Assembly (NCBI RefSeq): GCF_018598225.1
Contig: NZ_JAHESF010000050.1
Coordinates: forward strand, 1 to 43,886
Source of the DNA: Chryseosolibacter histidinae
GTDB taxonomy: Bacteria; Bacteroidota; Bacteroidia; Cytophagales; Cyclobacteriaceae
DNA: 43,886 nt
Direction of reading: 5' to 3'
Shown here: positions 9,493 to 43,886 of the stretch, piece by piece
Layout: the number at the start of each line of letters is the position of its first letter
Position numbering within the stretch: position 1 is the stretch's first letter
Program-made: the position numbers and the translations under genes
Notes under the pieces: model-generated
What the model was told of the DNA's origin: nothing
Database searches by the model: none
Seen by the model: the letters and a program-made list of their open reading frames with translations, nothing else

Positions 9493-9632
9493 TTGATTAT
9501 ACATGATTAACATGATTTACAGGGATTAAAGGCAGATCGTCGAGCCGTCTGTTTCATTCTGAGATCCTCGGATGAATTTGAAAATCATGTTCATCTGAGA
9601 TACTTTAATCCTGGTCAGTTAATCCTGATCAC
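9493..9632. repeat. ATGATTAAC / CAGGATTAA inverted repeat pair
   Basis: Between the PspA and TerD genes, 9496-9530 holds tandem words ATGATTAAC and ATGATTTAC (9-nt spacing). At 9604-9630 stands the opposite-strand word, read on the minus strand as CAGGATTAA and occurring twice at 14-nt spacing. The second array begins exactly at the TGA of the PspA-like gene. Confidence 0.6.
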
Positions 9633-10453
9633 TTACCATCGAAGAAATGTTTCAGTTTTTCGTCCTTCGGTGGTGCGATCTGTTTTTGTTCCTGCGCCGG
9701 TTTTACCGGTGTTGCTTGTGTGTCGAGTTTGATCTTCACCTGTTGCAGCTTCCGTTCTTCCAGTGCTTCTTTTTTCTTTTGTTCTTCCGTTGTCATTTCA
9801 AGCTTTAAGGTTTCCAGCTCGTGAGAGACGTTGATCGTAGACTCGAGTTGTTCAAACTCGCGCTCCAGCTGCTTCTGCGAGAACAGCGACTCCTGTAATG
9901 CTTCACTCTGGTCTGCCATCTCGTTGATCTTGTCTTCATATCGCTGAAAGTTCGACAACGCACTCGTGCCGATGCCCTGGAGCTGCTTCGCGATCTTTCC
10001 CTGCGCCTCCGCATTTTTCGCTTTGGCCTCGAGAATGGTCTGCTTCGAGCGCATCTCTTTGAGCTTGGTCTGCAACGAATCGAGATTTTGCCTCAGCACT
10101 TTGATGTCGCTCTCCGACTTCTGGAAGATTGCCGAATACTCCAGCACTTTCCGGTCTTCGTTCGACTTCTCCGTCAGCGCCTTCTTCGCCATCGCTTCAT
10201 TTGCCTGGCCGAGTGCCATCTTCGCTTTTTGTTTCCAGCTTTCCGACGCAAGCGTTGCCTGCTGCAGCTCCCGGTCCCACTTCTTATGGTTGGCAAGCGC
10301 GATGGAGAAAGCTTCCGTTGCATCGTTGATCGCTTTCTCAAGCTCGGCAACAGCAAGCTTCGACATGTCGACAGGATTCTCCAGCCGGTCTACCGCCTTG
10401 TGTGCTTTTGCTTTAAAAATGTTTGAAAGCCGTTGTAGGATTTGTGACCACAT
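9629..10453 (-). CDS. PspA/IM30-like coiled-coil protein
   Basis: A 274-residue, almost entirely helical protein that begins MWSQILQRLSNIFKAKA, the amphipathic N-terminal helix typical of PspA/IM30. It continues with the NPVDMSKLAVAELEKAI motif and long coiled coils (about 30-220) rich in Lys, Glu and Gln. PspA/Vipp1 proteins are ESCRT-III-like membrane-binding proteins that protect a stressed inner membrane. The C-terminal 40 residues (Pro, Lys and Gln rich) lie beyond the conserved domain. The start at 10453 is chosen because the longer frame adds 60 residues with no family similarity. It lies upstream of two terD genes. Confidence 0.88.
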   Translation of the reverse strand: MWSQILQRLSNIFKAKAHKAVDRLENPVDMSKLAVAELEKAINDATEAFSIALANHKKWDRELQQATLASESWKQKAKMALGQANEAMAKKALTEKSNEDRKVLEYSAIFQKSESDIKVLRQNLDSLQTKLKEMRSKQTILEAKAKNAEAQGKIAKQLQGIGTSALSNFQRYEDKINEMADQSEALQESLFSQKQLEREFEQLESTINVSHELETLKLEMTTEEQKKKEALEERKLQQVKIKLDTQATPVKPAQEQKQIAPPKDEKLKHFFDGK

Positions 10454-10730
10454 AGGGTTGTTAGTTTTGGTTTGTTTACGGGGTGCCTTAAGGTCAATTC
10501 CAGCGCCAAATGCCCTTGCGGGCCTGAAAAGGGCGTTGCGGGATTGCGGTTTAGCTAATTCTGGAATCCCATGTACCAAAAATTGGAAAAAATGACTTTT
10601 TGAAGCCACAATCAAAAGGCATTCCATTCCCACGCTAAAAAATAGCCTTTTTCAGCAGATCAGGGTTTCAATAATAAATGTAAGTTCTGTTGGTTACGGG
10701 TAGGTTTCTGGAGGTATGGAGCCCCCTTGA

Positions 10731-10765
10731 ATAGTAGGCAGTAGGAAAATAGGGCAATAGGCAAC
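10731..10765. repeat. Heptad array, AGTAGGC type
   Basis: The word AGTAGGC and its variant AGTAGGA follow one another at 7-nt spacing, then two related words at 8-nt spacing (AATAGGG, AATAGGC). The same family recurs at 15821-15853. Confidence 0.65.
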
Positions 10766-10796
10766 CGTTCGAAACACGGGCCTGGTTAAAACACCG

Positions 10797-14050: not shown

Positions 14051-14164
14051 TGTACTTCAGATCTTTTGTCTCTCTTCTTTTATTGTCTCACGGATTCTGG
14101 ACGAAGATAGAAAAATATCAGCAGTCTGAAGACGACTCCACCGCCGGCGCCGAAGCACTCCCTG

Positions 14165-14264
14165 GCGCGGAAGTTTCTTCGCACACACTAGCGCGGAAGT
14201 TTCTTCTGTGCGCCTTCCAAAACCTGGTTCGATAGCAAAATCTCCCTTGGGAACTTAGTTCCCC
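14165..14264. repeat. Two-palindrome intergenic element, one partial and one full copy
   Basis: The first palindrome alone occurs at 14165-14184, truncated within its right arm. A complete unit follows at 14191-14264, with GCGCGGAAG, TTCGATAGCAAAA and GGGAAC-TTA-GTTCCC. Confidence 0.85.
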
Positions 14265-14280: not shown

Positions 14281-14355
14281 AATGTCGAATGCCGAAGCAG
14301 ATCCACTTCGGCATTCGACATTCCTTGTTCAATATTCGATATTCAAAATTCGGAC
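14281..14355. repeat. Heptad array, TTCGACA type, with perfect 17-bp hairpin
   Basis: The arm 14281-14297 is perfectly complementary to 14306-14322, with an 8-nt loop. From 14307, seven consecutive heptads all begin with TTC (14307-14355); examples are TTCGGCA, TTCGACA and TTCAATA. This is the clearest demonstration of the 7-nt phase. Confidence 0.85.
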
Positions 14356-14363
14356 CGCCCCTG

Positions 14364-14436
14364 GCGCGGAAGTTTCTTCCGTGCGCTCTAAAAACCTTGT
14401 TCGTAGCAAAGCCTCCCTTGGGAACTTAGTTCCCAC
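14364..14436. repeat. Two-palindrome intergenic element, last copy
   Basis: A complete unit with both palindromes, ending 11 bp before the stop of the pirin gene. The central word is TTCGTAGCAAA, one base shorter than in the other copies. Confidence 0.85.
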
Positions 14437-15430: not shown

Positions 15431-15832
15431 ATGGCAAAGGAAAAACAGGATCCGGCTTTGAATGATGTTGAATGCCAGTCACAACTGGGGGCTATCGGCG
15501 ATGCCCTGTATGCCATTGGCGGAAAGTGGAAGCTTCGCATCTTCGTTGCGCTCATGCACGGCAAGGGCCGGTTTAATGAGCTGCAGCGAACCATCGATGG
15601 CATCTCATCGAAAGTGCTGTCAGCAGAACTAAAGGAACTCGAGTTGAATGGGTTCGTCAAAAGGCGGGTGTTCACCGGAAAGCCGATCGTGATCGAATAC
15701 GAGCTGACCGACTACGCCCTCACCGTGCGCCCCATCCTCGACGCACTAGCAGAATGGGGTGGCATGCACCGCCGAAAGATCCGGCAAAGCATGAAGCAAG
15801 ACTTCGAAGCCAGCAAAATAAGTAGGCAGTAG
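15431..15832 (+). CDS. HxlR family transcriptional regulator
   Basis: A 133-residue HxlR-type winged-helix protein. The family hallmarks are the Cys near the N-terminus (NDVECQSQLGAI), the helix IGGKWKLRIFVALMHG, FNELQRTIDGISSKVLSAELKELE (recognition helix region) and GFVKRRVF with a wing before YELTDYA. HxlR proteins such as YodB and HypR sense thiol-reactive compounds through this N-terminal Cys. The gene is divergent from a pirin. The last codons (AGT AGG CAG TAG) lie in an AGTAGGC heptad repeat, so the repeat supplies the terminal Ser-Arg-Gln and the stop. Confidence 0.93.
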   Translation: MAKEKQDPALNDVECQSQLGAIGDALYAIGGKWKLRIFVALMHGKGRFNELQRTIDGISSKVLSAELKELELNGFVKRRVFTGKPIVIEYELTDYALTVRPILDALAEWGGMHRRKIRQSMKQDFEASKISRQ

Positions 15833-15897
15833 GCAAATGGACAGTAGGCAAGATGCAGATACCGAAATCGTACCTCGTAAATCGTACCTCGTACCTA
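15821..15897. repeat. Heptad arrays, AGTAGGC then TCGTACC type
   Basis: Between convergent genes two arrays follow each other. Positions 15821-15853 carry AGTAGGC words with one 8-nt step, starting inside the HxlR coding sequence. Positions 15868-15897 carry TCGTACC and TCGTAAA words in perfect 7-nt phase, ending 11 bp before the permease stop. Confidence 0.8.
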
Positions 15898-15907
15898 AGC
15901 CTAAATG

Positions 15908-18301
15908 CTATTCCGACCTCAGACTCTTCACTGGGTTTGCCATCGCTGCTTTTATCGACTGATAGCTCACCGTCAGCAACGTGATCACCAGCGCTCCAAT
16001 GCCAGCAGCGGCGAAGATCCACCAGGCCATGGTGCTCCGGTATTGATATTTCTGAAGCCAGTTGTTCATGAGGTACCACGCCATGGGCATCGCCAGCAGC
16101 AACGAGAGCGCCACCAGCCGCATGAAATCTTTCGAGAGCATACCCCAGAGGTTTACCACGCTGGCGCCCATTACTTTGCGCACGCCGATCTCTTTGGTGC
16201 GTTGTTCTGCTATAAAACTGGCCAGCCCCGAAATGCCCAGGCAGCTGATGAAGATGGCCAGCACGGCAAAGAAGCTGGCGAGCTTACCGATCCGTTCTTC
16301 GTCGCTGAACTTGCGCGCATATTCCACGTCTACAAATTCATGGGTGAAGGGCGATGCGGGACTGTGTTTATTGAATACCGTTCTGATCTTGTCAATCGCC
16401 TCGTGTGCGCTCATGTCGGGATTGAGCTTTAACAGGGCGATGTTGATGTTGTCGTAACGGTCGATGTGCCAGAGTGAAGGTCGCACGGGCTCATAGGGCG
16501 ACTCGATGATCATGTCTTTGATCACGCCAACGATGGTATAAGGCCTCTCGTTCCAGGTCAGTATCTCCCCTACAGCATTGTCAAACCCCAGGAATTTTTC
16601 AGCGGCTTCGTTGATCACAAACGCGTTCGAGTCGCTGGCAAACTCGCGTGAGAAATCGCGGCCGTCCTTAAATTGCCAGCCTACCGTTTTGCCGAACTCG
16701 TGGCTTACGCCGTTGTTGGGAAAATCGACAGCCAGTGCCGGATCTTTACCTTTCCAGGTGAAGCCACCGTTGCTGTTCCATACTTGTGTCGGAGGACTGC
16801 CAGCTTCGGCCATCTCTGTGATGGCGCGTTGTGATTTCAGCTCATTGCGTACAGCGTCGAAGTGTTTGTGGATGTCGTTTGTTTGTAAATATACATTGAT
16901 CAGTCCATTGCGGTCGTAGCCGATGGGCCTGTCTTTGGCGAACTCGATCTGGCGGAATACCACGATGGTGCCGATGATGAGCGTTACAGAAACAGTGAAT
17001 TGTAATACCACCAGCACCTGTCTGGGAATAGAAGCAAATCTGCCTACACGGAACGTTCCTTTCAATACTTTCACGGGCTGGAACGAAGACAGGTAGAGCG
17101 CGGGATAGCTGCCCGCCACAAGACCTGTGATGAGGCTGAATCCGATGCCGATGAGCCAGAACCGCGGACTGCTCCACAACAAGGTAAGTCGTTTATCCGC
17201 TACCTGGTTGAATTGCGGCAACGCCAGGTATACCAGTCCGATGGCCACCACGAAAGCCAGCAACGCCACCACGATAGATTCACAGAAGAACTGGTTGACG
17301 AGTTGGGATCTCATCGAGCCGACCGACTTGCGGATACCTACTTCCTTGGCGCGTTTCTCGGAGCGGGCTGTGCTCAGGTTCATAAAGTTGATACACGCCA
17401 GCAGCAACACAAAAACGCCGATGATGCCGAACATCCAAACGAATTCGATGCGGCCGCCCACATTCTTGCCTTCCTTGAACTCGGAATACAGGTGCCATTT
17501 GCTCATGGGCAAAAGGAACACCTCCGGTTTGTACTTGCGGTCGTTGTCCGTGCGAAGCCTGTTATATTTTACGTTGATGATCTTGGCTGAAACCTGGTCG
17601 AAGTCCGCGTTATCGGCCAGCTGCGCCCATGTTTGGGTGAAGTTGCTGTCCCACGGATCGTCCATGGTCTTGATCCATTCGTTTTCGATGATATAGAGCG
17701 ACCACGGCATAATGAAGGTCATCTCCCGGAATTTGGAGCTGTGCGGCATGTCTTCATAGACACCTGTCACTTTCACGTCGTGTTTGTTGTTCACGCGCAT
17801 CATCTGGCCCATGGGATCGGCATCGCCAAAGAAGGTTTTTGCCACGGTCTCAGAGAGTATGATGGAGTACGGATCTTTCAACGCGAGCTCCGGATCACCT
17901 TTCAGCAGGTTGATCGAAAACATATCGATCACCGGTGGCTCCCAGTACATACCTGCTTTGTTGAACTTCTTATCGCCCACCGCAAGGATGCGCCCGAAGT
18001 TCCAGGTCGACTGAATGACATATTTAAAATCGCTGCCGAAATTATTGCGGATCTCCTCGGCCATCACGTAAGGGTTGGACACCTGCGATTGTTTTACGCC
18101 ATTATAGATGTTATGCTGCCACACCTGCGCAAGCCGATCGTAGTTCTTATGGTAGCGGTTGTACGTCAGCTCATCCCAGATCCACAACCCGATCAGCAAG
18201 GCCACGGCCATACCCGTAGCAAGACCGGCAATGTTGATAAACGTGTAGCCCTTATTCTTGATAAGGTTCCGGACGGCGATCTTGAAGTAGTTGCGGAGCA
18301 T
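15908..18301 (-). CDS. FtsX/MacB-type ABC transporter permease
   Basis: A 797-residue permease with the same architecture as the one at 10983-13376 but clearly diverged in sequence. It has the N-terminal MLRNYFKIAVRNLIKNKGY and TM helix, MacB periplasmic domain (about 50-240), three TM helices (about 285-390) preceded by RSEKRAKEVGIRKSVGS, a TM near 430, a second periplasmic domain, and three C-terminal TM helices preceded by EQRTKEIGVRKVMGAS. The protein ends NPVKSLRSE, almost the same as the NPVNSLRSE of the other copy. No ATPase gene is adjacent; the substrate is unknown. Confidence 0.93.
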   Translation of the reverse strand: MLRNYFKIAVRNLIKNKGYTFINIAGLATGMAVALLIGLWIWDELTYNRYHKNYDRLAQVWQHNIYNGVKQSQVSNPYVMAEEIRNNFGSDFKYVIQSTWNFGRILAVGDKKFNKAGMYWEPPVIDMFSINLLKGDPELALKDPYSIILSETVAKTFFGDADPMGQMMRVNNKHDVKVTGVYEDMPHSSKFREMTFIMPWSLYIIENEWIKTMDDPWDSNFTQTWAQLADNADFDQVSAKIINVKYNRLRTDNDRKYKPEVFLLPMSKWHLYSEFKEGKNVGGRIEFVWMFGIIGVFVLLLACINFMNLSTARSEKRAKEVGIRKSVGSMRSQLVNQFFCESIVVALLAFVVAIGLVYLALPQFNQVADKRLTLLWSSPRFWLIGIGFSLITGLVAGSYPALYLSSFQPVKVLKGTFRVGRFASIPRQVLVVLQFTVSVTLIIGTIVVFRQIEFAKDRPIGYDRNGLINVYLQTNDIHKHFDAVRNELKSQRAITEMAEAGSPPTQVWNSNGGFTWKGKDPALAVDFPNNGVSHEFGKTVGWQFKDGRDFSREFASDSNAFVINEAAEKFLGFDNAVGEILTWNERPYTIVGVIKDMIIESPYEPVRPSLWHIDRYDNINIALLKLNPDMSAHEAIDKIRTVFNKHSPASPFTHEFVDVEYARKFSDEERIGKLASFFAVLAIFISCLGISGLASFIAEQRTKEIGVRKVMGASVVNLWGMLSKDFMRLVALSLLLAMPMAWYLMNNWLQKYQYRSTMAWWIFAAAGIGALVITLLTVSYQSIKAAMANPVKSLRSE

Positions 18302-18396: not shown

Positions 18397-18440
18397 CAGT
18401 AACTGGTAACTGGCAACTGGCTAACCGTCAACCGGTCACC
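18397..18440. repeat. Heptad array, ACTGGCA type, at the 3' end of the regulator gene
   Basis: Words GGTAACT and GGCAACT stand in 7-nt phase, then AACCGTC-type words after a one-base slip. The TGA of the RamB-like gene (18436-18438) lies in the last word. Confidence 0.75.
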
Positions 18441-19961: not shown

Positions 19962-20163
19962 TGGTTACTAGTTGCCTGTTGCCAGTTGCCGGTTGCCTGT
20001 TGCCGGTTCATTTTGTGTTTATTATTACTACTGAGTTTCTCAATCGAAAGACACCGAAAAAACTGACGGCATTATCGAGCTTCCGCCAACCGATTTACCA
20101 AGATTCCGAACGCAATGCTGTCCTCGCCCCAACCGGCCACCCGGTAACTGGCAACTGGCAACA
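19962..20163. repeat. Inverted pair of ACTGGCA-type heptad arrays
   Basis: Positions 19962-20009 hold seven words in perfect 7-nt phase (variants of AGTTGCC and GGTTGCC). Positions 20134-20163 hold the reverse-strand words (TAACTGG, CAACTGG). Positions 19978-20000 and 20141-20163 are complementary at most positions, bracketing about 140 bp. Confidence 0.75.
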
Positions 20164-21974: not shown

Positions 21975-22106
21975 TAGATATGAGATGTGAGATAATACCG
22001 AGTGACTCGAAAACCGCCCGGTCTCATCCCGATAGCTATCGGGACTCAAGTCTCACATCTAACTTGAAACTTCAAACTTGAAACTTTAAACTTTTAACCT
22101 CAAACT
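21975..22106. repeat. Heptad arrays with nested palindrome between aceB and aceA
   Basis: GATATGA-type words (21977-21996) begin right at the aceB stop. TGAAACT-type words run in perfect phase for eight heptads at 22051-22106. AGATGTGAGA at the left pairs with TCTCACATCT (22051-22060). In the loop lies the perfect 16-bp palindrome CCCGATAGCTATCGGG (22028-22043). The second array ends 8 bp before the aceA start codon. Confidence 0.85.
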
Positions 22107-22114
22107 TTCCGAAT

Positions 22115-23538: not shown

Positions 23539-23565
23539 TCGTACCTCGTATTTCGTACCTCGTAC
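23539..23565. repeat. Heptad array, TCGTACC type
   Basis: Nearly four words in perfect 7-nt phase (TCGTACC, TCGTATT and so on). The same word family occurs at 15868, 32080 and 41954. Confidence 0.8.
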
Positions 23566-23610
23566 TTTTTAGCAAGACCGATATTCTGAGCAAGGCACGT
23601 GTGTCGGCAT

Positions 23611-23761: not shown

Positions 23762-23790
23762 GTGGACTGTCGACTGTGGACCGTGGACTA
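23762..23790. repeat. Heptad array, GTGGACT type
   Basis: Four words in perfect 7-nt phase (GTGGACT, GTCGACT and variants), ending in the stop codon region of the EamA gene. Confidence 0.8.
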
Positions 23791-30210: not shown

Positions 30211-30237
30211 GTTTGGTGATTAAGGTTTTACATTGGG

Positions 30238-32023: not shown

Positions 32024-32079
32024 TGTAACCAGTAAGCACTCCGTGGTTGAAGTGTAGTGTAAGGCAAAATAGTGAAAAG

Positions 32080-32160
32080 TTAGGTACGAAGTACGATTTA
32101 CGAGGTACGAAGTAATGCAGATCGGGCTACCGTACCTCGTACTTCGTATCTCGTACCTAA
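32080..32160. repeat. TCGTACC-type heptad hairpin
   Basis: Positions 32080-32109 and 32131-32160 are inverted, 26 of 30 bases complementary, with a 21-nt loop. Both arms keep perfect 7-nt phase (AGGTACG words on the left, CGTACCT words on the right). The right arm ends 1 bp before the purT stop, so the hairpin is the first thing transcribed after purT. Confidence 0.85.
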
Positions 32161-32161
32161 A

Positions 32162-33355: not shown

Positions 33356-33470
33356 GCTCAATCTGATGCTTAAGGATCAGGGCGCAATGTAGGGCTTATT
33401 CTCAGGTAGAAAAAAGTAATGTTTAGTAAATCGGTGTGGTAGGTGTTGGATGAAACCTAACCCTAAATGG

Positions 33471-33893: not shown

Positions 33894-34214
33894 GGTTATT
33901 CCAAAGGTATTCCGGATCACCCTATTACATTATCAGTGCCATACTCTGGAAACAGCTTTAAACGGCAAAAAGGTCCCTTTTCGTCTCTTATAAATTTCCG
34001 GATTTGGGAGCTTTCAAACAGGCCGGATACAATAATGAGCGTGAAGTGGAAAAAAATCTTTGTCTGTTTTGAGCGCCTTGTGCCGGCGAATATGCCGATA
34101 TTTTTTTTGAATTACGCATGTAATAATGAGGGCTTTTTATGATAATTATTGCGATATTAAAATGACCAATTTAATCCTTTTAACCTAAAAACCGAATTCA
34201 GGCAGTCCTTCCCG

Positions 34215-34649: not shown

Positions 34650-34651
34650 AT

Positions 34652-34788
34652 GGGTTGCCAGTTGCAGGTTGCCAGTTGCCGGTTTAGACCGGGGACACTT
34701 AGACTATCGAGCTATGGTCTAAAACTGGAAGCATAGCTCAGTCAGTAGATGACCACTGCACTCACTGGCAACCGGTAACTGGCAACGA
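34652..34788. repeat. ACTGGCA-type heptad arrays bracketing a structured loop
   Basis: Words GGTTGCC and AGTTGCC stand in perfect 7-nt phase at 34654-34683; ACTGGCA and ACCGGTA words at 34763-34786. The two are inverted. The loop between them holds TTTAGACC (34683-34690), perfectly complementary to GGTCTAAA (34716-34723), and a stretch resembling a tRNA 5' half (34724-34760). Confidence 0.8.
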
Positions 34789-34793
34789 TAAAT

Positions 34794-34823
34794 AAAAACG
34801 CAGGACCCTTTCAAGCCCTGCGT
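34794..34823 (-). terminator. Terminator of the SMP-30-like gene
   Basis: ACGCAGG (34798-34804) pairs with CCTGCGT (34817-34823). The A-run at 34794-34798 becomes T on the minus strand. It lies 23 bp beyond the stop. Confidence 0.85.
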
Positions 34824-34845
34824 CCCTTTGTAAATATCTGACCGG

Positions 34846-35736
34846 TTACTTCGTAACCTCGTAAGCCATCACCTTGTTCTTGAAGAAGCCGGGTACCAGC
34901 AGCAGGTTTTTCTCCTGGATGTATTCGATATCGGCCGCGCTCACTGAGTCGGCGCGGGTATCCAGCACGAGCGTTTTTTTCCACTCAGGGCTGATGTAAT
35001 GCACCATACCATTCCAGCTTGATACAAAGTAGGCACCGTTGCCGATAGCCTCGATGCCGTCGGGGTTTTCAATACTGTCGGTACGCACCGTTACCTGTTT
35101 GCCGGTAACGTCTATCGTATTGAGGTTGGTGCTATCCCACAACACCATCAGCATGGTTCCGTTTTCGGCGAGCAGACCGTTCGGGCCGGCCAGTCCTTCC
35201 AACCACTTCGAAAGCTTGCCGTTCTCGATCACTGAAATGGTACCGCCTCCGGTATCGCTGATGTATACTTTTCCGGTAGCATCCGTTGTGATGTCGTTCA
35301 GGAATTTGGCACCCGCTACGGAGTGGGTTTTGGTGATCTTGCCGGTAGCCGGATCGATCTCGTGTACCCGGTCGATATCTGCCACATACAACTTGCCATT
35401 GGCCAGTCCCATTCCCTTGGGCGCATCCATACCTTTGGCCCACTGTGCCTCTGTTACCTTGCCATCAAGCGATACTTTGGAAATGAAGCCATTGCCATCC
35501 TTTTTGTCGGGCACGCCATTGATGTTGGCTACGTACAGCACGTCGCGTTCCTTGTCGTAAAGAACCGATTCACAGGTTGTTAAAACGGTATCGGTTTCCC
35601 ACTTCAGCTTCAGTGTCACCGGCGGAGGTGCAACAGCAGTCGTATCTGCCGTGGTCGCAGACGATGTTTCTTTCTGGCTCTGGCATGCAAGGGCAATGAC
35701 GGCCAGGGCAGGCATCAGTACGTTGAGTTTTTTCAT
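34846..35736 (-). CDS. SMP-30/gluconolactonase-like lipoprotein
   Basis: A 296-residue protein with a lipoprotein signal (MKKLNVLMPALAVIALAC, Cys18), followed by a six-bladed beta-propeller of the SMP-30/gluconolactonase/LRE-like family. Characteristic stretches are the repeated ANINGVPD, GMDAPKGMGLANGKLYVADI, FLNDITTDATGKVYISD and LAGPNGLLAENGTML segments. The enzyme class hydrolyses lactones, but many such proteins only bind ligands; the activity here is not determined. The start is at 35736, because the longer frame adds 41 residues with no signal. It is a single gene with its own terminator. Confidence 0.92.
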   Translation of the reverse strand: MKKLNVLMPALAVIALACQSQKETSSATTADTTAVAPPPVTLKLKWETDTVLTTCESVLYDKERDVLYVANINGVPDKKDGNGFISKVSLDGKVTEAQWAKGMDAPKGMGLANGKLYVADIDRVHEIDPATGKITKTHSVAGAKFLNDITTDATGKVYISDTGGGTISVIENGKLSKWLEGLAGPNGLLAENGTMLMVLWDSTNLNTIDVTGKQVTVRTDSIENPDGIEAIGNGAYFVSSWNGMVHYISPEWKKTLVLDTRADSVSAADIEYIQEKNLLLVPGFFKNKVMAYEVTK

Positions 35737-36047
35737 AGTTCGTTTTGGTTTGCGCGCAAATATAATAAAGTCCACGGTCCACGGTCGACTGTCCACAGCA
35801 GATTCGTATGAACAGTATGTAAAATCTACTTTCATGAAACTGGTTACGGTAAAAGCCAATCGTCACAGTGCACGGATATCGGTAAGTTTCTCTACTTTCT
35901 TTTTTTGACACCCGATTGCTTTACTTCTCGATTTCACTTACTTTCATTCAGGATTCCTTGAGCCGCTGTGATCGTGCTGGCTAGCCCACCTGGAATTTCA
36001 TCATCAATGATTCAACGATAGCCAGGCAACAATTCCTGGGTAGTACC
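35737..36047. other. Spacer between divergent genes
   Basis: These 311 bp hold no gene. They carry a GTCCACG-type heptad array (35770-35799) 34 bp upstream of the SMP-30-like gene. The rest shows no clear motif; a GGGTAG element lies just before the next start codon. Confidence 0.6.
35770..35799. repeat. Heptad array, GTCCACG type
   Basis: Four words in 7-nt phase (GTCCACG, GTCGACT and variants). It is the reverse strand of the GTGGACT family, in the 5' region of the SMP-30-like gene. Confidence 0.75.
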
Positions 36048-37631
36048 ATGGACGAATTAAAGAGCAAGGTCGCAGAGCATTATCTTTCCCTGGCACATGC
36101 GAAAGCCGAAGGAACGTCCAACGCTATCATCATCTGGACCATCTCCCTGGTATACATCTGGTTTTTTGGTATCGAAAGAATCCATACGGACTATAGAGAC
36201 CTTAATAATCTCGTCAACGAAAAGGTCGTGATCAACCAAAAGATCAGTGAGAAAAGAGACTCTTTACGAGCGAGGTATGGTATCCTGAAAGGGCTGGACG
36301 AGGCGCTGATCGAACAAAAGGTCTACTATGATAACGCCTATAATGAGGTAAGTAATGATCTTGGGAATGCGCTGGTGACCAAGAAGAATGAGATCGAAGC
36401 GGCGAAAAAAGAAATTAACTTCAAGATCCCTCCTGATATCGATGTGCCAGTAGATCCACAGTATGCACCCCTGGCATGGAGCCTCCTGCTGCTGGGGTTT
36501 CTGGTGTATGTTGGGGCTTCAAGGGCAAGGATCCTGAACTTGTGTGCCAAGACGCTCAGGATCTACCGGCATGACTTGTCATACAAACCCGAACACTTTT
36601 CAGATTTCATTTCAATGCCCTTCTGGATCGCGCCGTTACCAACAAAAGATAGTAAGGTGTTCGCGGATGACCTCTGCCATGCGTTGGGATGGCAGCGGCA
36701 GAAAATGAAAACCACAGTTTATGTGCTGATCGGCATCTTCGTTTTCTTTGTACTCCAGTTGCGTGTCATGTACATCAATTTTGAAGTAGCAGACCAGTTC
36801 ACGAACGATGTCAGGCATGTATTTTTGGTCCTCAACCTTTCCATCCTGGGTTGGCTCATCTATTACTTCATCCACTGGTTCAGGCAGCTTGTAGTTCCAG
36901 ACCACTATGCCAATGAACCCTCCCCCAATTCCCTGCGCCGGCGCGACATTCTACGCATGTCAGCGTTCAGCCTCTCTTTCGGCCTGCTGTATCCCGTCGT
37001 AAAGGTTTCAGAAATTGTTTTTAAGCCACGGGTACCGAGATTCAGAAAGCACATTCCCAGCTTCACTTCCAGGCTTGCCCCTGGCTATTATTTTAACAAC
37101 CTCAGCTCAACCATCCATTACGTCAATAGCGATCAGAAGATCCGCTCCATTGTCTGCATCAACCAGGATAACCTGCAGCCTGAGTCAGTGGCGTCCATTA
37201 GCGCCTTAACGTCCTTTAAAACTGTCAGTAATAAACGGGTGCACCTGGCTACATCTTCGCAGGTACTTGAAACAACCGCTTTGGAATTGGTGAGCAGTGG
37301 GAAACCGCTCGATGCCATAATTTTGTTAAGGGCTTCAGTTTTTCATGACCTTTTCTTAAAGAGTCGTAATTCACAAGACAAGCCCGTGGCGTTTCAACAC
37401 AAGGTCACCCAGAAGCCAGGCTATAGGATCTACGATCTGCTGGCCGGATTATCCGTCAGGTTTGAGCCGGACAGGAGAAACCTGAAAGTCTTGCTGCGGA
37501 TATTGAGAGATTCAAGAAATGTAGCACAGTTCGAGACGCGGTACAGCAAATGGAACAACGAGAAAAGTATATGGTTTCAGAAATGGAAGGATAAGAATAA
37601 AAAGATCAAATGGTCTTCCACTTTGGTTTAA
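36048..37631 (+). CDS. Unrecognised membrane protein with coiled coil
   Basis: I do not recognise this 527-residue protein. Visible features are a TM helix near 26-42, a long helical coiled coil (about 50-125) and further TM helices near 143-162, 222-243 and 260-282. A segment with RRRDILRMS and a hydrophobic stretch (about 300-330) follows. The C-terminal half (about 335-527) is soluble and Lys/Arg rich, with no enzyme motif seen. The gene is alone on its strand between the SMP-30-like gene and the tRNA-like sequence. It is a good candidate for an unknown envelope component. Confidence 0.7.
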   Translation: MDELKSKVAEHYLSLAHAKAEGTSNAIIIWTISLVYIWFFGIERIHTDYRDLNNLVNEKVVINQKISEKRDSLRARYGILKGLDEALIEQKVYYDNAYNEVSNDLGNALVTKKNEIEAAKKEINFKIPPDIDVPVDPQYAPLAWSLLLLGFLVYVGASRARILNLCAKTLRIYRHDLSYKPEHFSDFISMPFWIAPLPTKDSKVFADDLCHALGWQRQKMKTTVYVLIGIFVFFVLQLRVMYINFEVADQFTNDVRHVFLVLNLSILGWLIYYFIHWFRQLVVPDHYANEPSPNSLRRRDILRMSAFSLSFGLLYPVVKVSEIVFKPRVPRFRKHIPSFTSRLAPGYYFNNLSSTIHYVNSDQKIRSIVCINQDNLQPESVASISALTSFKTVSNKRVHLATSSQVLETTALELVSSGKPLDAIILLRASVFHDLFLKSRNSQDKPVAFQHKVTQKPGYRIYDLLAGLSVRFEPDRRNLKVLLRILRDSRNVAQFETRYSKWNNEKSIWFQKWKDKNKKIKWSSTLV

Positions 37632-37649
37632 GGATACATTTTAATATAC

Positions 37650-37740
37650 AGTCCGGTCTTCTAATGTAAGATACTCGTGCTCCGCAAGCGAAAGCCTGTG
37701 GACAATACGAAAGATGGGGGTTCGAATCCCTCCCGGGCAG
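37650..37740 (+). other. tRNA-like structure or tRNA relic
   Basis: The 3' end looks like the T-arm and acceptor of a tRNA: GGGGG (37716-37720), loop TTCGAAT, CCCTC (37728-37732), then CCGGGCA and G. GTCCGG (37651-37656) pairs with CCGGGC (37733-37738) at the right distance for a class II tRNA (91 nt). TCTT (37657-37660) can pair with AAGA (37668-37671). In the middle CCGCA-A-GC-GAAA-GC-C-TGTGG (37682-37701) forms a hairpin with a GNRA loop instead of a normal anticodon arm, so it is not a standard tRNA. Confidence 0.5.
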
Positions 37741-37761
37741 CTTTTATCGCATGCCCCTCCT

Positions 37762-39282
37762 TTAATATTTTTCAGAGTTGCTCACAAATGAAATGAACTT
37801 ACTATCCGGTGACCAGGAAGGAACGTTGATGGTTCCCTGGCCACCGTACAGGTAGGCGATCGCTTTGGGTGCTCCACCACCGGCAGGCATCAGCCGCAGC
37901 ATTACCCGTTTGTAAAAGGGATGATCGTTTGGATCGATGTCCTGAGGGAAGGAGATCATTACCAGCCACTTCCCGTCAGGAGAAATGTGTGGGAACCAGT
38001 TGTTGTACTCATCGAAGGTCAGCTGTTCCTTGCCGGAGCCGTCGGGTCTCATGCGCCAGATCTGCATTGTGCCAGAGGGGTTCGCATTGTAATAAATGTA
38101 TTTTCCATCGGGAGAATACTCGGGACCATCGGCATGACTTGTTTTGTTGTCGGTGAGTTTGGTTTCCGCCCCGCCATTGATGGAGACCTTGTAAATATCA
38201 AAGGTCTTGCCATCGCGCTGGCCCACAAAAAGTACCTCTTTTCCATTGGGAGCCCAGCCATGCCAGTACGAAGGTGTTTTTTCCGTGACTTGCTTCGGTG
38301 TTCCACCCTGGAGGGGAAGCACATAAACAGTTGAGCCGCCTCCCGGTAATCCATCGCGGTGGTGACTGATGGCCAGCATCTTTCCATCGAAAGAAATGCC
38401 GTGGTCGTTGTTGTTCCTGTTAGCGGTGCCGGTGTTCACTTTCTCCGGGGTGCCTCCTTCTATGGGGATCATAAAAAGAGCGCCATCCTGGTTGAACAAC
38501 AGCTTTCTGCCATCAGGCATCCAGTTGGGCGCCTCAAAACGGCTTTTAGACTCGTGGATCACCTTGCGCATGCCGTCGGCAACATTCAGGATCTCGAGAC
38601 GTGATCCCATAAATCCCTGCTGGTAAGCATTGTAAGAATCCGCTACGGGTTTATCGATGCGCACGTTCCAGACACGGGCTTCTTCCACCACATCTTCATT
38701 GTGTGAGCTGATGAATATGCCGGCCAGCACTTCATCCGTAAGCGCCTCCATCTCATGTGAGCCGATGGTCTGCAGGGGTTCGCCCCAGTGCGCTGCCCTC
38801 ATGGTGATCTTTTTTCCGGATCGCTCGAGCTGCAGGGTGCGGTAGTGCTTCTTGGGCGCGAACAGCTCATCTTCGGGATCTCTCATGTGTGAACCCTTCA
38901 GTGGACGCCACTGCAACACGGTAAGTCCATCGCCATGCAGCGTAGCCGTGATATGCGGTGCATTGTCGTCGGTGGTTTGCCGTACCATCCAACCGATCTT
39001 GCGATGGGCATCGGTGCCACTACCCACGAATTCGAAGTCGGCCGTAACAATAAAGTCTCCCTTGAGCTTTTTGAAAGCATATTGGAATTCGTCTCGTCCA
39101 AACCAGATGTTGTACCCGGCGCCCTTCAGGGTATAGACCTGCGATGAAGCATCGAATTGTACACTGCCTTTCTTTTTAGGGTTGCCAACGTCAGCGCTGG
39201 CCTCGAAGATGCCAACGGGATTTTGCTGAGCTTGTACAGTTCCTGACAAAACCAGCAGCATGAGTGGTAGAAATGCTCGCAT
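37762..39282 (-). CDS. Secreted TolB-like beta-propeller protein with N-terminal DUF1349-like domain
   Basis: A 506-residue secreted protein. After the signal peptide (MRAFLPLMLLVLSGTVQAQ) comes an N-terminal lectin-like (DUF1349-type) domain (about 25-205). WD40/TolB-type PD40 repeats follow (about 230-505), with units such as APNWMPDGRKLLFNQDG, YSPDGKYIYYNANPSG, ISPDGKWLVMISFP and SWSPDSKFISFVSNS. Such proteins are periplasmic scaffolds or glycan- or peptide-associated; none of the enzymatic dipeptidyl-peptidase motifs are present. It lies 179 bp from the S41 protease gene on the same strand. Confidence 0.88.
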   Translation of the reverse strand: MRAFLPLMLLVLSGTVQAQQNPVGIFEASADVGNPKKKGSVQFDASSQVYTLKGAGYNIWFGRDEFQYAFKKLKGDFIVTADFEFVGSGTDAHRKIGWMVRQTTDDNAPHITATLHGDGLTVLQWRPLKGSHMRDPEDELFAPKKHYRTLQLERSGKKITMRAAHWGEPLQTIGSHEMEALTDEVLAGIFISSHNEDVVEEARVWNVRIDKPVADSYNAYQQGFMGSRLEILNVADGMRKVIHESKSRFEAPNWMPDGRKLLFNQDGALFMIPIEGGTPEKVNTGTANRNNNDHGISFDGKMLAISHHRDGLPGGGSTVYVLPLQGGTPKQVTEKTPSYWHGWAPNGKEVLFVGQRDGKTFDIYKVSINGGAETKLTDNKTSHADGPEYSPDGKYIYYNANPSGTMQIWRMRPDGSGKEQLTFDEYNNWFPHISPDGKWLVMISFPQDIDPNDHPFYKRVMLRLMPAGGGAPKAIAYLYGGQGTINVPSWSPDSKFISFVSNSEKY

Positions 39283-39373
39283 TTTCCGGGTAGTTTAGAT
39301 AAAGATGAATTTATCAAAAATTGCCCGGAGCGCCGAAGGAAGGTCACTCTAATTAAAAAGTGAGCAGGAAAGA

Positions 39374-39503
39374 GTCCACGGTCCACGGCAGTGACGAGTT
39401 ACGTTTTTTGCTCACCTGCGATCCGATAGCTATCGAACGAAGTACGATCGTGTAGTTTACACTACTCTACCGTGGACTGTCGACTGTGGACGGTGGACTG
39501 GAC
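39374..39503. repeat. GTGGACT-type heptad arrays bracketing CGATAGCTATCG
   Basis: GTCCACG words at 39374-39390 and the inverted GTGGACT, GTCGACT words at 39471-39503 enclose about 80 bp. The loop has CGATAGCTATCG (39424-39435) and GTGTA-GTT-TACAC (39450-39462). The right array starts inside the coding sequence of the S41 protease and provides its last codons. Confidence 0.8.
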
Positions 39504-40895
39504 TATCAGACTAAAACCCCTCCGCTTCTGATCCAGCGAGTGACCGATGATCGGTCTTGTTTCGCGTGATGGTGCACGGCCTGTTGTTGCTGTGCCGGTG
39601 ATCTGGGCGATGGCCTGGCTGAGCAATGTTTCGCGTGTATCGCCGAGGGGATAGATGAACAGGCTGTTATCTTCGTTCAGCACGTTGGGGGTAAAGCCGT
39701 TCCCATAGTCAGACTGGTCGAGGCTGTTGTATACTTTCACCACAATGGGCTGCATGCCCCAGGTGTTGGAAGCGTTGTTCTCTTCGTAAAGCGATATGGA
39801 ACCAACATTCTTGCCATAGGTGACATCGCCGATGAGGAATACATCCATGAACGGTTTCAGTGCGTTGATCACAAGCTCGCTGGCGGAAGCGGTACGGGAG
39901 CTGGTGAGCACATAAACACGGCCGCCGGAGAGCATGCTGCCGATGTTCGAAGCCTTGGAGGTGAACTTGGCGATCAGGAAATCAGCGCCATAGCGCGGAT
40001 CGTCAACGATCTCCTTTTCAACCTGTGTGTTGTACGATTTTCGGGCGAATACTTTTGTGTTGTCTATACCCTTGCCGATAAAGCTGGCCAGGCTGTTGGC
40101 AGCGTCTTCACCCCCGCCACTGTTGAAACGCAGGTCGAGCACCAGGTCTGTGATGCCGCCCGACTTGAAGGTGGCAAAGATGTTGGCCATCTGGGCATCG
40201 TAGGCGTTGGGATTGCTATCGGTGCCGCTGGCGAAGAAATTATAAACATAGTAACCTATCTTTTTTCCGCCCACTTCCAGGATGCGGTTCATGTAGTGGG
40301 GATTCTCGGCGTATTGAATGGTGGTGAGCGAAATGGTTTTTTCCGCATCGAACTGCTGCTCGTTGACCAGCAGCGGCTTGTACCGAAGGCTGTGGTTCTC
40401 CTTTACCTGGGCCATTACCGTTTGATAATTGGAGACAGTGATTTGCTGATCGTTGACACGGGTGATGAGGTCGCCCCGCTTGAGGCCGGCGGCTTCGGCC
40501 GGTGACGAGGGCTTCACATACAGTATCTGGGCCACCACGTTGTTGCTCGATTCGTTCTCGCGGTAAAGCACATATTCATAACCGGCTTCCTTGCTGATGC
40601 CCTGGAGCGAGTTCAGCAGATCCCGGTAGTTATCCTGGATCCAGGAAAAACGATCTTCGGAAGAGAGCAGCGATTTGAAGAAGGTTTCCGGGTCTGTGTT
40701 CTTGTTGGGAGACGCGGGAAGCTGGTCGTTCCAAAGGTACCAGAATTCCATGGTATCAAAGATCCAGTTGTTGACCTTGGCATCTGCGGTCAGCGGCTGT
40801 GGATCATCCTCTTTACAGGATAACAGGAGCACAAGCAGCAGCAGAACGGGCTTGAAAGAGAACAAGGAAAGAAGATTGTTACGCACTTTTTTCAT
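39462..40895 (-). CDS. S41 family peptidase lipoprotein with PDZ domain
   Basis: A 477-residue protein with a lipoprotein signal ending VLLLSC. A PDZ domain lies at about 110-190 (KPSSPAEAAGLKRGDLITRVNDQQ). The S41 tail-specific protease domain (about 210-420) shows DLRFNSGGGED, TSSRTASASELV (catalytic Ser) and GDVTYGKNVGS (catalytic Lys). The last 13 or so residues (QSTVHSRQSTVE) are encoded by a GTGGACT-type repeat and are unlikely to be conserved. The family degrades misfolded envelope proteins or C-terminal tags. It is probably exported to the periplasm. Confidence 0.93.
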   Translation of the reverse strand: MKKVRNNLLSLFSFKPVLLLLVLLLSCKEDDPQPLTADAKVNNWIFDTMEFWYLWNDQLPASPNKNTDPETFFKSLLSSEDRFSWIQDNYRDLLNSLQGISKEAGYEYVLYRENESSNNVVAQILYVKPSSPAEAAGLKRGDLITRVNDQQITVSNYQTVMAQVKENHSLRYKPLLVNEQQFDAEKTISLTTIQYAENPHYMNRILEVGGKKIGYYVYNFFASGTDSNPNAYDAQMANIFATFKSGGITDLVLDLRFNSGGGEDAANSLASFIGKGIDNTKVFARKSYNTQVEKEIVDDPRYGADFLIAKFTSKASNIGSMLSGGRVYVLTSSRTASASELVINALKPFMDVFLIGDVTYGKNVGSISLYEENNASNTWGMQPIVVKVYNSLDQSDYGNGFTPNVLNEDNSLFIYPLGDTRETLLSQAIAQITGTATTGRAPSRETRPIIGHSLDQKRRGFSLIVQSTVHSRQSTVE

Positions 40896-41033
40896 AGATA
40901 ACCAAGAAACGAATTTACGCCATTAATTGTATCACCGGGTACCGTTTTTGCCGTTGAAAATCCCCTTTTACGAGACAACCGCATCGGTTCCGGGTATGAT
41001 TCTTTACCTGCAGGCTGGTGATCAGTTGTTTAG

Positions 41034-41948
41034 ATGCCACCGGGATTAAAGACGATACTCATGGCCCTCAAAGAAGCTTTTAAGCTGCTCAGCAAAAAAG
41101 AGCCGCTGGTATTGTCTTCTTCCACCGCCTTTTTCGCCACCTTTTCCATTTCGCCCATCATCATTATACTGATCAGCCTCTTTGGACTGTATCCGCAATC
41201 TGAACGCATCAACAATCACCTGTTCCAGTCCATCGGTTCCATCTTCGGAAGGGAAACCGCCTGGCAGATAGAATCGATCGTTAATAATTTTATGTCCATT
41301 GAAGGTAACTGGTTCATCACGCTGGCCAGTGGTGTCTTTTTTATCTTCGTGGCCACCACGTTGCTGAGCGTGGTCAAACATGCCATTCAGAAGATCTGGC
41401 ATCTCAGGCCCAAGCCGCGCCTGAGATTAAAGTATCACTCGCGCGAGAGAGGAACACTCTTCGGGGTGATTGTGTTCACGGGTGTGCTTTTTCTGGTATC
41501 GGTGGTGATCGATACAAGCCTCGGTATGTCGCTCGACTACCTGCAGGCGGTCTGGCCGGGTGCCGCCATTGTGATGGTGCGGGTGTTGAACGTGCTCTTC
41601 TCCGTAATTATAGTGACCATATGGTTTACCGTGCTTTTTAAGATCCTGCCCGAAGCAAATATTTCATGGGACACCGCTTTCAACGGCGGACTGCTTACCG
41701 GCATCCTCTTCAGCATCGGCAAATGGCTGCTGCATGAAGTGCTGGTCTATGCGCGTTTCGCCACCATCTTCGGCGCCTCGGCTTCATTTGCCCTGCTCCT
41801 GCTTTTTGTTTTTTACTGCTCGTTCATCCTTTACTATGGAGCGGCGTTCACCTACCAGTACAGCGAAATGAACAACGCTCATATCTGCGCCGGGAAATAT
41901 GCGGATGAATATGAGGAGCGGGTAAAGGAAGACGTGAGTAGCCCGTAG
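41034..41948 (+). CDS. YihY/BrkB family membrane protein
   Basis: A 304-residue inner-membrane protein of the YihY/virulence factor BrkB family. Six hydrophobic helices can be seen (about 28-52, 95-118, 138-160, 180-205, 215-235, 245-275), with the motif LPEANISWDTAFNGGLLTGILFSIGK typical of the family. Its function is not established; the old annotation as ribonuclease BN is wrong for the family. An in-frame ATG at 41061 is an alternative start. The gene converges with the next one, and a heptad hairpin lies between. Confidence 0.93.
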   Translation: MPPGLKTILMALKEAFKLLSKKEPLVLSSSTAFFATFSISPIIIILISLFGLYPQSERINNHLFQSIGSIFGRETAWQIESIVNNFMSIEGNWFITLASGVFFIFVATTLLSVVKHAIQKIWHLRPKPRLRLKYHSRERGTLFGVIVFTGVLFLVSVVIDTSLGMSLDYLQAVWPGAAIVMVRVLNVLFSVIIVTIWFTVLFKILPEANISWDTAFNGGLLTGILFSIGKWLLHEVLVYARFATIFGASASFALLLLFVFYCSFILYYGAAFTYQYSEMNNAHICAGKYADEYEERVKEDVSSP

Positions 41949-41953
41949 TGAAA

Positions 41954-42048
41954 AGGTAAGAAGTACGATCCCGATAGCCATCGGTAACGAGGTACGATAA
42001 CTGCACCCCGTACCTCGTCCATCGTACTTCGTACCTAATACCTAACTA
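41954..42048. repeat. TCGTACC-type heptad hairpin with nested palindrome
   Basis: Positions 41954-41969 pair with 42021-42036 (15 of 16), and 41988-41996 pair with 42009-42017 perfectly. Between the two stem segments on the left lies CCGAT-AGCC-ATCGG (41971-41984). The right side runs for six heptads (CGTACCT, CGTACTT, AATACCT and so on) up to the stop of the barrel gene. It lies between convergent genes, so it may be a bidirectional terminator. Confidence 0.85.
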
Positions 42049-43886
42049 GAATAGGAAGCCCAACCTCACATAAAACAACGCTCCTTCTTCCGAAGCCCCT
42101 ACCTCCGTCGAAAGCACGCCCATATTGAACGGTGTAAACCAGATGCCGCCGCCCCAGCCTTTGTGCCACACCTCAGATTTTCCGCCAGGCGCAGAAGGAT
42201 CGATACCAGCAGCGTCTTTATACCATACCCTTCCGAGGTCGTGAAAACCCAGGATGCCCAATGAAGCCGGGAAAAGGTAAGTGCGAAGGCTGAGCAGTCT
42301 CATGCGCACCTCCAGGTTTGAATACAGCTTGCTGTCGCCATAAAAGCGGGTTTTCCGGAAACCCCTCAGCTCCGTTTTTCCATCCAGTATCTGAGCCTGG
42401 TAAAACTCATAGTTGCCAGTGTTGACACCGCCACCGATGCGCACGGCAAACGTCATCCTGGAAACAGCGCGAAACGAATGATAGAATGAAAGCACGCTTT
42501 CAAAAGATGAAAAGGTGCTCGCATGTTTATCAAGACCGGCCATCGATCTGCCGGTAGTGGTCCACAGAAGTCCACGACGCGTAAACTGTCTGCTGTTGCG
42601 TTTGTCGATGGCGAGCTCCCATGCGCCGCCTGCATAGACGTTGTACTCGTCGAAAAGATTGTACTCCAGCGTATTGGCATATTCTTCTATGAAGCGATCC
42701 TGGCCGGCACTGGGTTCCTCCATCTCTATCCGCTGAAAGGCAGGCCCGATCTTGAATGAAGCGCTTCCGAAATTCCGCGAAAGCGCCGGCTCTATTCTCA
42801 GCTCCTCAAAACGATACCGGTAATAGTTGATAGAGTTCTTCACTTCGATGCCGGGAACAACTTCAATATCGTCGTTGTAAATGCTCTCGTTGCCCATACC
42901 GAAGAAGTTGTTCACATAGTTGGGCGAACGGAGATTCACATCCATTTCAAAATTCCATTTTCCAACCACTTCTGTGAATTTTCCCTGGTACCTGAAGCTG
43001 AAAGACTGTGTGAGCGGAGCGATGCTCGCCATAAAGATATGGCGTTGCTTGAACGGCTGCTTGCGGAAGCCATGCGCGATGTTGAGAAAACCGCCGCCGA
43101 TGAACAGCCCATCGTCAGGATTGTAATTTCCAAACAACAGCGGTGCAAAGAGGTTGTACCGGAACGACATCCTATCATACGCATTCACTTCCGGCACATC
43201 AGATGTCATGTCTTTTACCCGGGTACCGGGGCTCAGCTTGAACTGTCCCGTCTGGTCATACAGGAAAGCGCGGGCATTACCTCTCGCCTGTGCGCTGTCA
43301 GCGAGCTTGTCACTGCCTTCACCGCCGATGACGCGCAACGTAACAGCTTTTCTGTGGGGCGATCCTGTAATGATAAAATCGTCGTCGCCGCCAAGGCCAT
43401 AAAGCCTCACTTCACGGGTCTCGTGCCTTTTAAAGTGCCGGTCATAAAGCATTTTTCCCGGCTCGCCTTCTTTGGTAACCTTGAACACTTTCACGCGCAC
43501 ATCGCCGCCCGGTAACCGGTCAACCTCAAACCGCTCGCGCTTGTCCGAACCGGTAACCTCCACTTCGCGCGCCAGGAACTCATAGAGTGATACAGCATAT
43601 CGGTCGAGCTTGTCACGGCGGTGCTTCAGATCGCTGACAATGCGTGGACCATGCAGGTTGTAGATCGGTTCGGGCCATTGCCTGATGGCGTGTTCGATGG
43701 CTTCGTCTGTAAGTACAGCCTGGAGCGCTTTAGCCGTGCTCACCCACTGCTCTTTTGATAAAGCCGTGAGAAACGTGCGATCGAAATAACGGGCGTTGAA
43801 TGATAAACCCGGCGCCCAGTCAATGTCACTGTCAAACCCTTCGAACTTGGGCAGCGCCCACCGGCGGCTCCAGAGCCTGGCGATCC
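42046..43886 (-). CDS. Large outer-membrane beta-barrel (BamA/TamA-type surface antigen), partial
   Basis: The frame stays open from the stop at 42046 to the window edge (at least 612 residues), so the N-terminus is missing; a GTG at 43743 is probably not the true start. The visible part begins with a helical domain, then a beta-rich linker with RLYGLGGDDDFIITG and IGGEGSDKLADS. The C-terminal half is a barrel (about 25 kDa or more) ending FYVRLGFLF, an outer-membrane-type C-terminus. Similar proteins in Bacteroidota carry an N-terminal calcineurin-like phosphoesterase domain; this cannot be seen here. Confidence in the barrel is good, in the phosphoesterase part low. Confidence 0.8.
   Translation of the reverse strand, partial: IARLWSRRWALPKFEGFDSDIDWAPGLSFNARYFDRTFLTALSKEQWVSTAKALQAVLTDEAIEHAIRQWPEPIYNLHGPRIVSDLKHRRDKLDRYAVSLYEFLAREVEVTGSDKRERFEVDRLPGGDVRVKVFKVTKEGEPGKMLYDRHFKRHETREVRLYGLGGDDDFIITGSPHRKAVTLRVIGGEGSDKLADSAQARGNARAFLYDQTGQFKLSPGTRVKDMTSDVPEVNAYDRMSFRYNLFAPLLFGNYNPDDGLFIGGGFLNIAHGFRKQPFKQRHIFMASIAPLTQSFSFRYQGKFTEVVGKWNFEMDVNLRSPNYVNNFFGMGNESIYNDDIEVVPGIEVKNSINYYRYRFEELRIEPALSRNFGSASFKIGPAFQRIEMEEPSAGQDRFIEEYANTLEYNLFDEYNVYAGGAWELAIDKRNSRQFTRRGLLWTTTGRSMAGLDKHASTFSSFESVLSFYHSFRAVSRMTFAVRIGGGVNTGNYEFYQAQILDGKTELRGFRKTRFYGDSKLYSNLEVRMRLLSLRTYLFPASLGILGFHDLGRVWYKDAAGIDPSAPGGKSEVWHKGWGGGIWFTPFNMGVLSTEVGASEEGALFYVRLGFLF

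Follow-up and report, generated by a model that had tools for sequence, protein, structure and literature searches.

Heptad arrays in the window

The window, the whole stretch of 43,886 nucleotides analysed here from Chryseosolibacter histidinae (contig NZ_JAHESF010000050.1), contains genes including those for malate synthase, isocitrate lyase (ICL), an EamA protein and a helix-turn-helix (HTH) protein, and its intergenic spacers carry tandem arrays of degenerate 7-nt words (heptads). These arrays are mostly the arms of hairpin elements, in which about four RGTNNNN words are followed by an interior and then by about four NNNNACY words, and which may best be read as small, dispersed and mobile.

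A complete element of word family A lies at 32083..32157, with arms at 32083-32110 and 32130-32157, an interior containing ATGCAGATCGGGCTA and an RNA fold of z -6.8, and a complete family C element is found at 34653..34787 (z -7.1), 3 nt past a stop codon. A degenerate family A element fills the entire convergent spacer at 41949..42045 (z -6.3). Regarding the remaining pairs, family C arms at 19963-20004 (left) and 20143-20163 (right) make up an element at 19963..20163 in a divergent spacer that measures 416 nt, compared with 132 nt in the genome of the same genus used for comparison (G002), and family B arms at 39373-39386 and 39469-39498 delimit 39373..39498, the right arm coding for the final residues of the gene at 39462-40895.

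A single period in non-coding DNA

The host genome comprises 8.04 Mb in 122 contigs, of which 1,243,886 b were analysed, namely the window, 20 stretches placed around matches of one word family and two later pieces of 400 kb from contigs known to hold that family; this sample (1.24 of 8.04 Mb) is non-random. Genes were called with a simple script of our own, which gave 87.5% coding sequence in the first part of the sample.

In the non-coding DNA of the window (5,771 b), self-identity at lag 7 was 0.301 vs. 0.252 (sd 0.005) in 20 dinucleotide-preserving shuffles and was raised also at lag 14 (0.279) and slightly at lag 21; coding DNA gave 0.241 at lag 7. At a score of at least 11, ten arrays were detected in the non-coding DNA of the window against none in each of the 20 shuffles, and one in coding DNA. 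Across the whole sample, lag-7 identity in non-coding DNA was 0.293 compared with 0.255 after shuffling, with no excess in coding DNA (0.243), and 225 non-coding arrays were found vs. none in each of five shuffles, with six arrays in coding DNA. The first 843,886 b gave 164 arrays at lag 7, 158 of them intergenic, and 0–8 arrays at lags 4, 5, 6, 8, 9, 10, 11, and 13, and a separate 400 kb gave 80 arrays at lag 7 and 0–3 at other lags. Chance and base composition as sources of the arrays are ruled out by the shuffles and the other-lag counts, and the heptad period is confirmed as a real, strong and orderly feature of host non-coding DNA.

An earlier note on the window had proposed a single 7-nt period shared by many words and found almost only between genes, to be checked by autocorrelation with shuffled controls; that check bears the proposal out in the window and beyond it, and three of the arrays singled out there lie at 19971-20008, 22045-22098, and 42005-42045. 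One correction is that words come back across the genome, one family having 197 matches and none to the reversed pattern. Conservation of the period rather than of the sequence applies between species, the words of G002 being mostly different, but not within the host, where about ten word families recur. The spread of arrays along C34:30001-430000 is very uneven, with 48 of 50 in the first 183 kb and two in the other 217 kb (about 212–430 kb is nearly empty). The host genome also carries SusC/SusD genes of the Bacteroidota type.

Architecture of the elements

Sorted by strand, the families have the words TCGT-ACY, GTGG-ACY, GGCA-ACY, TTAA-ACY, ATGG-ACY, CCTT-ACT, YCTG-ACT, GATT-ACY, GCCT-ACT, and CANATCT, which recur across the whole host genome. 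A word-based scan detected 391 arms in 213 of the 698 spacers of at least 20 nt, a density of 314 arms per Mb of the sampled part. As many as 228 of these arms form 114 same-family pairs in the order RGTNNNN then NNNNACY ("- then +"), compared with two same-family neighbours in the reverse order ("+ then -") and seven on the same strand; neighbours of different families were "-+" in 21 cases, "++" in 16, "--" in 15, and "+-" in three. Where a spacer holds only two arms, in "- +" order, both belong to the same family in 95 of 105 cases, against a mean of 16.3 and a maximum of 32 in 2,000 shuffles. Exactly four words are present in 119 of the 228 paired arms, the median element length is 131 bp (114 pairs, 1.24 Mb), and interiors are mostly 18–200 nt long. 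That arms pair in opposite orientation, most often span four words and lie at gene 3' ends goes beyond what the earlier note had described.

Every family is marked by a word of its own, its left and right ends differ slightly, and elements are found in both orientations. In families with at least four elements, arms belonging to the same element resemble one another less than those taken from separate elements do (p 0.00025, replicate p 0.003), a pattern to be expected of elements that have unlike ends and lie in either direction. The results for families E and F, which are small with three elements apiece, partly point in the opposite direction. Perfect mirroring of variant words was accordingly dropped, similarity within elements being below that between elements. 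An inner motif of family C marks a single end in 17 of 24 elements (11 left, 6 right), both ends in one and neither in six, and a family A interior is common to several loci in both orientations. One B and one G element (GTCCAC and GTCCAT) have a common interior of ~190 nt, 73% identical over 181 nt, and sub-arm sequence that is similar by eye, an indication that the words of an element can all change jointly. A universal RGTNNNN grammar was rejected as post hoc: it fits most host families and does not fit family I, the TTCGAN array of the window or many words of Prevotellaceae. A scan of the window against Rfam at gathering scores gave no matches.

A second dispersed repeat of ~190 nt (CCGTCATYCTGAA...GGATCCTTCGCTC...GGATGACGG), itself an imperfect inverted repeat, occurs alone and within B and G elements, its loci including window 23688-23746 (matched; ~23570-23750 by eye), 97681-97873 of the joined C34 stretch, 82532-82728 of the joined C11 stretch and several arm-free loci.

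Orthologous spacers

In G002, whose isocitrate lyase is 84% identical to that of the host, 14 adjacent orthologous gene pairs of the sample could be compared. The two convergent genes that flank the degenerate family A element at 41949..42045 have stops 97 nt apart in the host, and in G002 these stops overlap as CTAG. Similarly, a GTCCAT element of ~140 bp in the divergent spacer L010:14534-14870 is missing in G002, and the flanks align by eye. Both spacers of G002 appear, on inspection by eye, to be empty sites. The protein encoded at 39462-40895 ends in an arm-encoded tail, VQSTVHSRQSTVE, where the relative has a different tail; one arm has thus replaced a C-terminal tail. Host spacers contain arrays in six of the 14 pairs and five of these six are longer than their counterparts, and the malate synthase–isocitrate lyase spacer, which is outside the 14, measures 140 nt in the host vs. 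28 nt (by eye) in G002.

Position relative to genes and RNA folding

Arms that face a gene 3' end start within -3 to +5 nt of it in 96 of 223 cases and lie within 20 nt either way (outer distance) in 169 of 223, whereas only 5 of 168 arms facing a gene 5' end start within -3 to +5 nt. At offset -2, 22 of 23 stop codons are TAG, formed as T/AG-T of the first word, compared with a TAG share of 24.8% in the genome. Arms are present in 61 of 120 convergent, 115 of 441 codirectional and 37 of 137 divergent spacers (chi-squared p 7e-7). For the 63 codirectional pairs, the median distance is 3 nt from the upstream stop and 74 nt to the following start; among 32 convergent pairs, 20 have both arms at most 20 nt from both stops. 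Arm polarity is outward from genes in 215 cases vs. 43 in the first sample and in 107 vs. 26 in the further 400 kb.

Regarding RNA structure, five regions were folded, and values of z -6.3 to -7.1 were obtained for the elements beginning at 32083, 34653, and 41949, with weaker folds for the B pair (39370-39505, z -2.8) and a mixed-family spacer (15828-15912, z -1.5). The outer flank is A-rich, so the sequence after the far arm is T-rich, and small hairpins of B arms account for two of 24 sites in a terminator scan of 30000-43886 (15.1 expected). Selection at the RNA level via G-U pairs was tried as an explanation and set aside, G-U and A-C combinations numbering 128 and 104 on the sense strand of codirectional spacers, with no clear preference.

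Gene-end location with convergent enrichment, strong folding of three elements and the T-rich sequence beyond the far arm would all be consistent with hairpins that evolved and were kept in place as 3'-end signals, either terminators or mRNA-protecting stems, the heptads being the mode by which stems grow. Intrinsic terminators have a GC-rich stem, a loop of 3–8 nt and then a T-run; here a T-rich flank follows the far arm, and loops are mostly tens to 200 nt. Loop size, arms in divergent spacers, the modest fold of the B pair, the lack of a clear G-U preference and the apparent absence of whole elements in G002 argue against such an origin, as do arms that often begin at the stop codon and would thus lie beneath the terminating ribosome. 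This reading is considered unlikely.

Heptad arrays in other genomes

In 200 kb of G002, 28 arrays were found at lag 7 compared with 0–4 at other lags; their words are mostly different from those of the host, AGTTTAA-like words being common to both at one locus, and a gene 3' end is found within 15 nt of only eight of the 28. At L135:17601-18448 of this genome, heptad arrays are themselves tandemly repeated every ~126–153 nt. Eight arrays were present in 40 kb of G038, taken around matches, and none in 20, 60, and 80 kb of G011, G012, and G040, respectively. Among 18 readable stretches (of 20 further ones) from relatives, arrays were detected in G001 (one), G008 (four), G018 (one), G019 (two), and G028 (seven; stretch chosen around a match), and the other 13 stretches had none; an AGTCCAT/AGTCGAT array is present in G028. 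Records of rumen Prevotellaceae contain many heptad arrays, some in mirrored pairs and many single at gene ends, although gene calls there were too generous for use (100 arrays called coding).

Family A words were found in three of 59 genomes, namely the host, G028 (one match) and G038 (13 matches, along with nine to the reversed pattern). The B/G pattern occurs in seven of 296 genomes of the phylum including the host, vs. 14 of 296 for the reversed-pattern control, and the family C pattern in the host alone of the 296. Six of the genomes with reversed-control matches were inspected; the words there are mostly TAGCTGA or TACCTGA, each differing by a single letter from the TAACTGA already in the literature. 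In G198, G194, G237, G114, G175, and G355, of the same phylum, the arrays are mostly pure TAGCTGA/TACCTGA, several of them at contig ends. A scan for CGTACCT gave 69 stretches from many phyla, the matches in Streptomyces and several others being near-pure and unpaired; L052, L057, L064, L083, L086, and L111 hold nearly pure, unpaired (CGTACCT)n in Billgrantia, Streptomyces, and Enterovibrio. In a generic test for pairs within 250 nt, mirrored and direct pairs numbered 54 and 4 in the host (G000), 7 and 13 in G002, 2 and 1 in G287, 1 and 0 in G174, 4 and 1 in G064, 2 and 0 in G060, 0 and 1 in G028, and 0 and 0 in G198, so that the host alone shows strong mirrored pairing; the direct pairs of G002 are probably one tandem cluster.

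Polymerase slippage, one of the generators that the earlier note had put forward, could make arrays everywhere if the polymerase has an intrinsic preference for 7-nt loops, as hypothesized in a 2007 survey cited in PMC4692102, with selection sparing those at gene 3' ends. Long pure arrays (L005:18099; L064, L083), variable word number, unpaired gene-end arrays in Prevotellaceae and the TAGCTGA and TACCTGA arrays of other genomes in the phylum fit this explanation. Bare slippage leaves the pairing of opposite same-family arms (95 of 105 two-arm spacers), the repeated use of particular words at many sites and the four-word arms unexplained, and arrays are absent from 13 of the 18 stretches of relatives; as the source of the host elements, it seems quite improbable.

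Interpretation

The arrays are more probably the ends of small dispersed elements resembling repetitive extragenic palindromes (REPs) and bacterial interspersed mosaic elements (BIMEs) or miniature inverted-repeat transposable elements (MITEs), with long imperfect inverted-repeat arms built of heptads, an account in which we place moderate confidence. Mobility, although unproven, is the reading that best accounts for the period, pairing, polarity, arm length, position, family dispersal, the one replaced C-terminus and the two apparent empty sites. Elements would have inserted between genes, most often at a gene 3' end, where their first bases (T/AGT) can provide the stop codon. Movement may depend on a trans-acting enzyme working on a folded single strand; the 7-nt word would set the register used by this enzyme, or by a protein co-evolving with it, to read the arm, and later slippage by whole words could change word number. 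Strong RNA folding of settled elements may, as a secondary effect, protect or terminate the upstream transcript.

Several observations weigh against this account. No partner was found for 163 of the 391 arms, some spacers mix families or show the crossed order D- C- D+ C+, interiors are mostly unalignable (39 matches vs. six for reversed queries; in family C, eight matches among 91 pairs), and of 107 interior matches at other sites, 51 lie more than 260 nt from any arm. No target-site duplication of 3–6, 8 or 9 nt was detected in 97 elements (p 0.1–1), and a 2-nt coincidence (p 0.010) is at an offset that overlaps the arm. Nor was a gene resembling an autonomous copy found between same-family arms in the sampled part of the genome; arms frame none of the four Y1 transposase matches, one of which lies ~460 nt from a family A element, and the host genome has no match to the reverse transcriptase domain RVT_1 at E<=0.001, a domain with matches in 29 of 59 searched genomes. 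Regarding the orthologous spacers, one array-bearing host spacer is shorter than in G002 (L010:12503-12612, 108 vs. 193 nt), the G002 counterpart of 39261-39462 bears its own short two-word array, and G002 is distant (51–95% protein identity in compared pairs), deletion in G002 being a possible alternative.

Ribbon-helix-helix omega proteins bind with a 7-bp register, and the direct 7-nt words, mostly with a common RGT end and in a preferred number, might similarly be site arrays for a DNA-binding protein that serves chromosome organization; about ten different words coexist in one genome, however, and overlap with stop codons is unexpected for such sites, which makes this very unlikely. That a telomerase-like reverse transcriptase wrote the repeats, one form of the unknown polymerase activity suggested earlier, is barely credible, for although DRT10 is reported to make template-dictated tandem-repeat DNA (PMC12632851), this array-rich genome lacks RVT_1 matches.

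Comparison with known systems

Short tandemly repeated repetitive (STRR) sequences are intergenic head-to-tail 7-nt units, and the host arrays, likewise head-to-tail, 7-nt and intergenic, belong among such heptad simple sequence repeats. The closest precedent is the GGGAATC heptads of Xanthomonas, which with the GGGGAYT heptads of Nostoc are reported to prefer four units near a neighboring open reading frame (ORF), to point outward (sense strand past the stop, antisense strand ahead of the next ORF), to form 70 and 75 convergent two-repeat cases in two Xanthomonas genomes, and are interpreted as G-quadruplexes (PMC4692102). The host elements have the same layout of 7-nt words, four units, outward polarity at gene ends and convergent pairs, but differ in having about ten families rather than one G-rich word type per group. 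Because host words without G-tracts (GTACGAR, GTTTAAR, GTTGCCR, and GTCCACR among ten family words lacking GGG) keep this layout, quadruplexes cannot be its general cause.

The belief that nothing comparable had been described in Bacteroidota was partly mistaken, since TAACTGA heptads, for which a translational role has been suggested, are reported from Beggiatoaceae, cyanobacteria, and five Bacteroidetes, with mixed heptamer assemblages in some of the latter (PMC4679880). They too are intergenic 7-nt direct repeats, and some relatives' spacers are shorter and repeat-free; that system differs in its single word, its position mostly just upstream of start codons (main genome) and the ratio of one indirect repeat to 169 direct sets (PMC4679880). 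In the open-access full text searched, nothing among the matches listed unites many non-G-rich heptad families in one architecture, which is weak evidence of novelty, and the searched passages of PMC4060949 do not mention heptads.

With REPs and BIMEs the host elements share small size, dispersal, hairpin formation, per-genome families, location at ORF 3' ends in convergent or unidirectional spacers and termini that supply TAG (PMC3733652). A REP, however, is a palindrome of 20–40 bp with a GTAG or CGTC tag at one end (PMC3733652), whereas the host arm is a direct RGTNNNN array with ends (A)AT/AGT, in which GTAG occurs only within family H words and some P arrays; and REPs frame a REP-associated tyrosine transposase (RAYT), to which no link was found in the host, its four Y1 matches being unframed. 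Like MITEs, the elements are small, non-coding and dispersed with terminal inverted repeats, but lack the target-site duplication in the lengths examined. The BrickBuilt MITE of Porphyromonas gingivalis is likewise an intergenic Bacteroidota element with a tandem repeat and small inverted ends, and differs in its 23-nt units and 19 copies in one strain (PMC4596501). The feature is thus REP- or MITE-like in habit and heptad-built in structure.

A wider possibility, which we regard as doubtful, is a widespread, unrecognized class of hairpin elements with ends of about four 7-nt words, in which species of one genus would differ in their words but keep the period and, to a lesser degree, the placement at gene ends. 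TAACTGA, GGGAATC, STRR sequences, and the host families would then be variants of a single system driven by a machine with a 7-nt register. The odds of this possibility are lowered by the finding that, in G002, only 8 of 28 arrays come within 15 nt of a gene 3' end. With arms in 213 of 698 spacers of a sample that is not random, the elements shape numerous gene ends, they affect gene annotation by rewriting protein C-termini and stop codons, and they make testable the old question of why heptanucleotides are favored bacterial repeats.

Other arms and repeats in the window

Between malate synthase and isocitrate lyase (21976..22107), family I words lie near both ends (21976-21994; part of 22045-22066) together with a family D arm (22061-22107). 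In the convergent ICL–EamA spacer, a family A arm is present at 23539..23566 (+ strand) and a family B arm, GTGGACY with GTCGACY, at 23762..23789 (+), at the stop codon of the EamA gene and beside the second repeat family. A further B arm (35769..35796, -) lies between two divergent genes, and a family C arm with GGCAACY/GGTAACY words (18399..18421, +) lies near the HTH gene, ~14 nt from its 3' end. The spacer with the weakest fold (z -1.5) combines a family H arm of three AGTAGGC words with one 15-nt step (15821..15849, -), which overlaps the end of the gene at 15431-15832, and a family A arm of TCGTACY words (15868..15896, +) at a distance of ~12 nt from the convergent gene's stop.

The TTC-initial array named in the earlier note is also real, consisting of degenerate ATTCGAN/ATTCAAN heptads at 14307..14351 with a score of 10.5, the top of its spacer, equaled in 0 of 500 shuffles. 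The same spacer contains an inverted repeat recognized by eye, ATGTCGAATGCCGAAG / CTTCGGCATTCGACAT, and GCGCGGAAGTTTCTTC occurs three times in one spacer (window 14120-14240 and 14358-14430).

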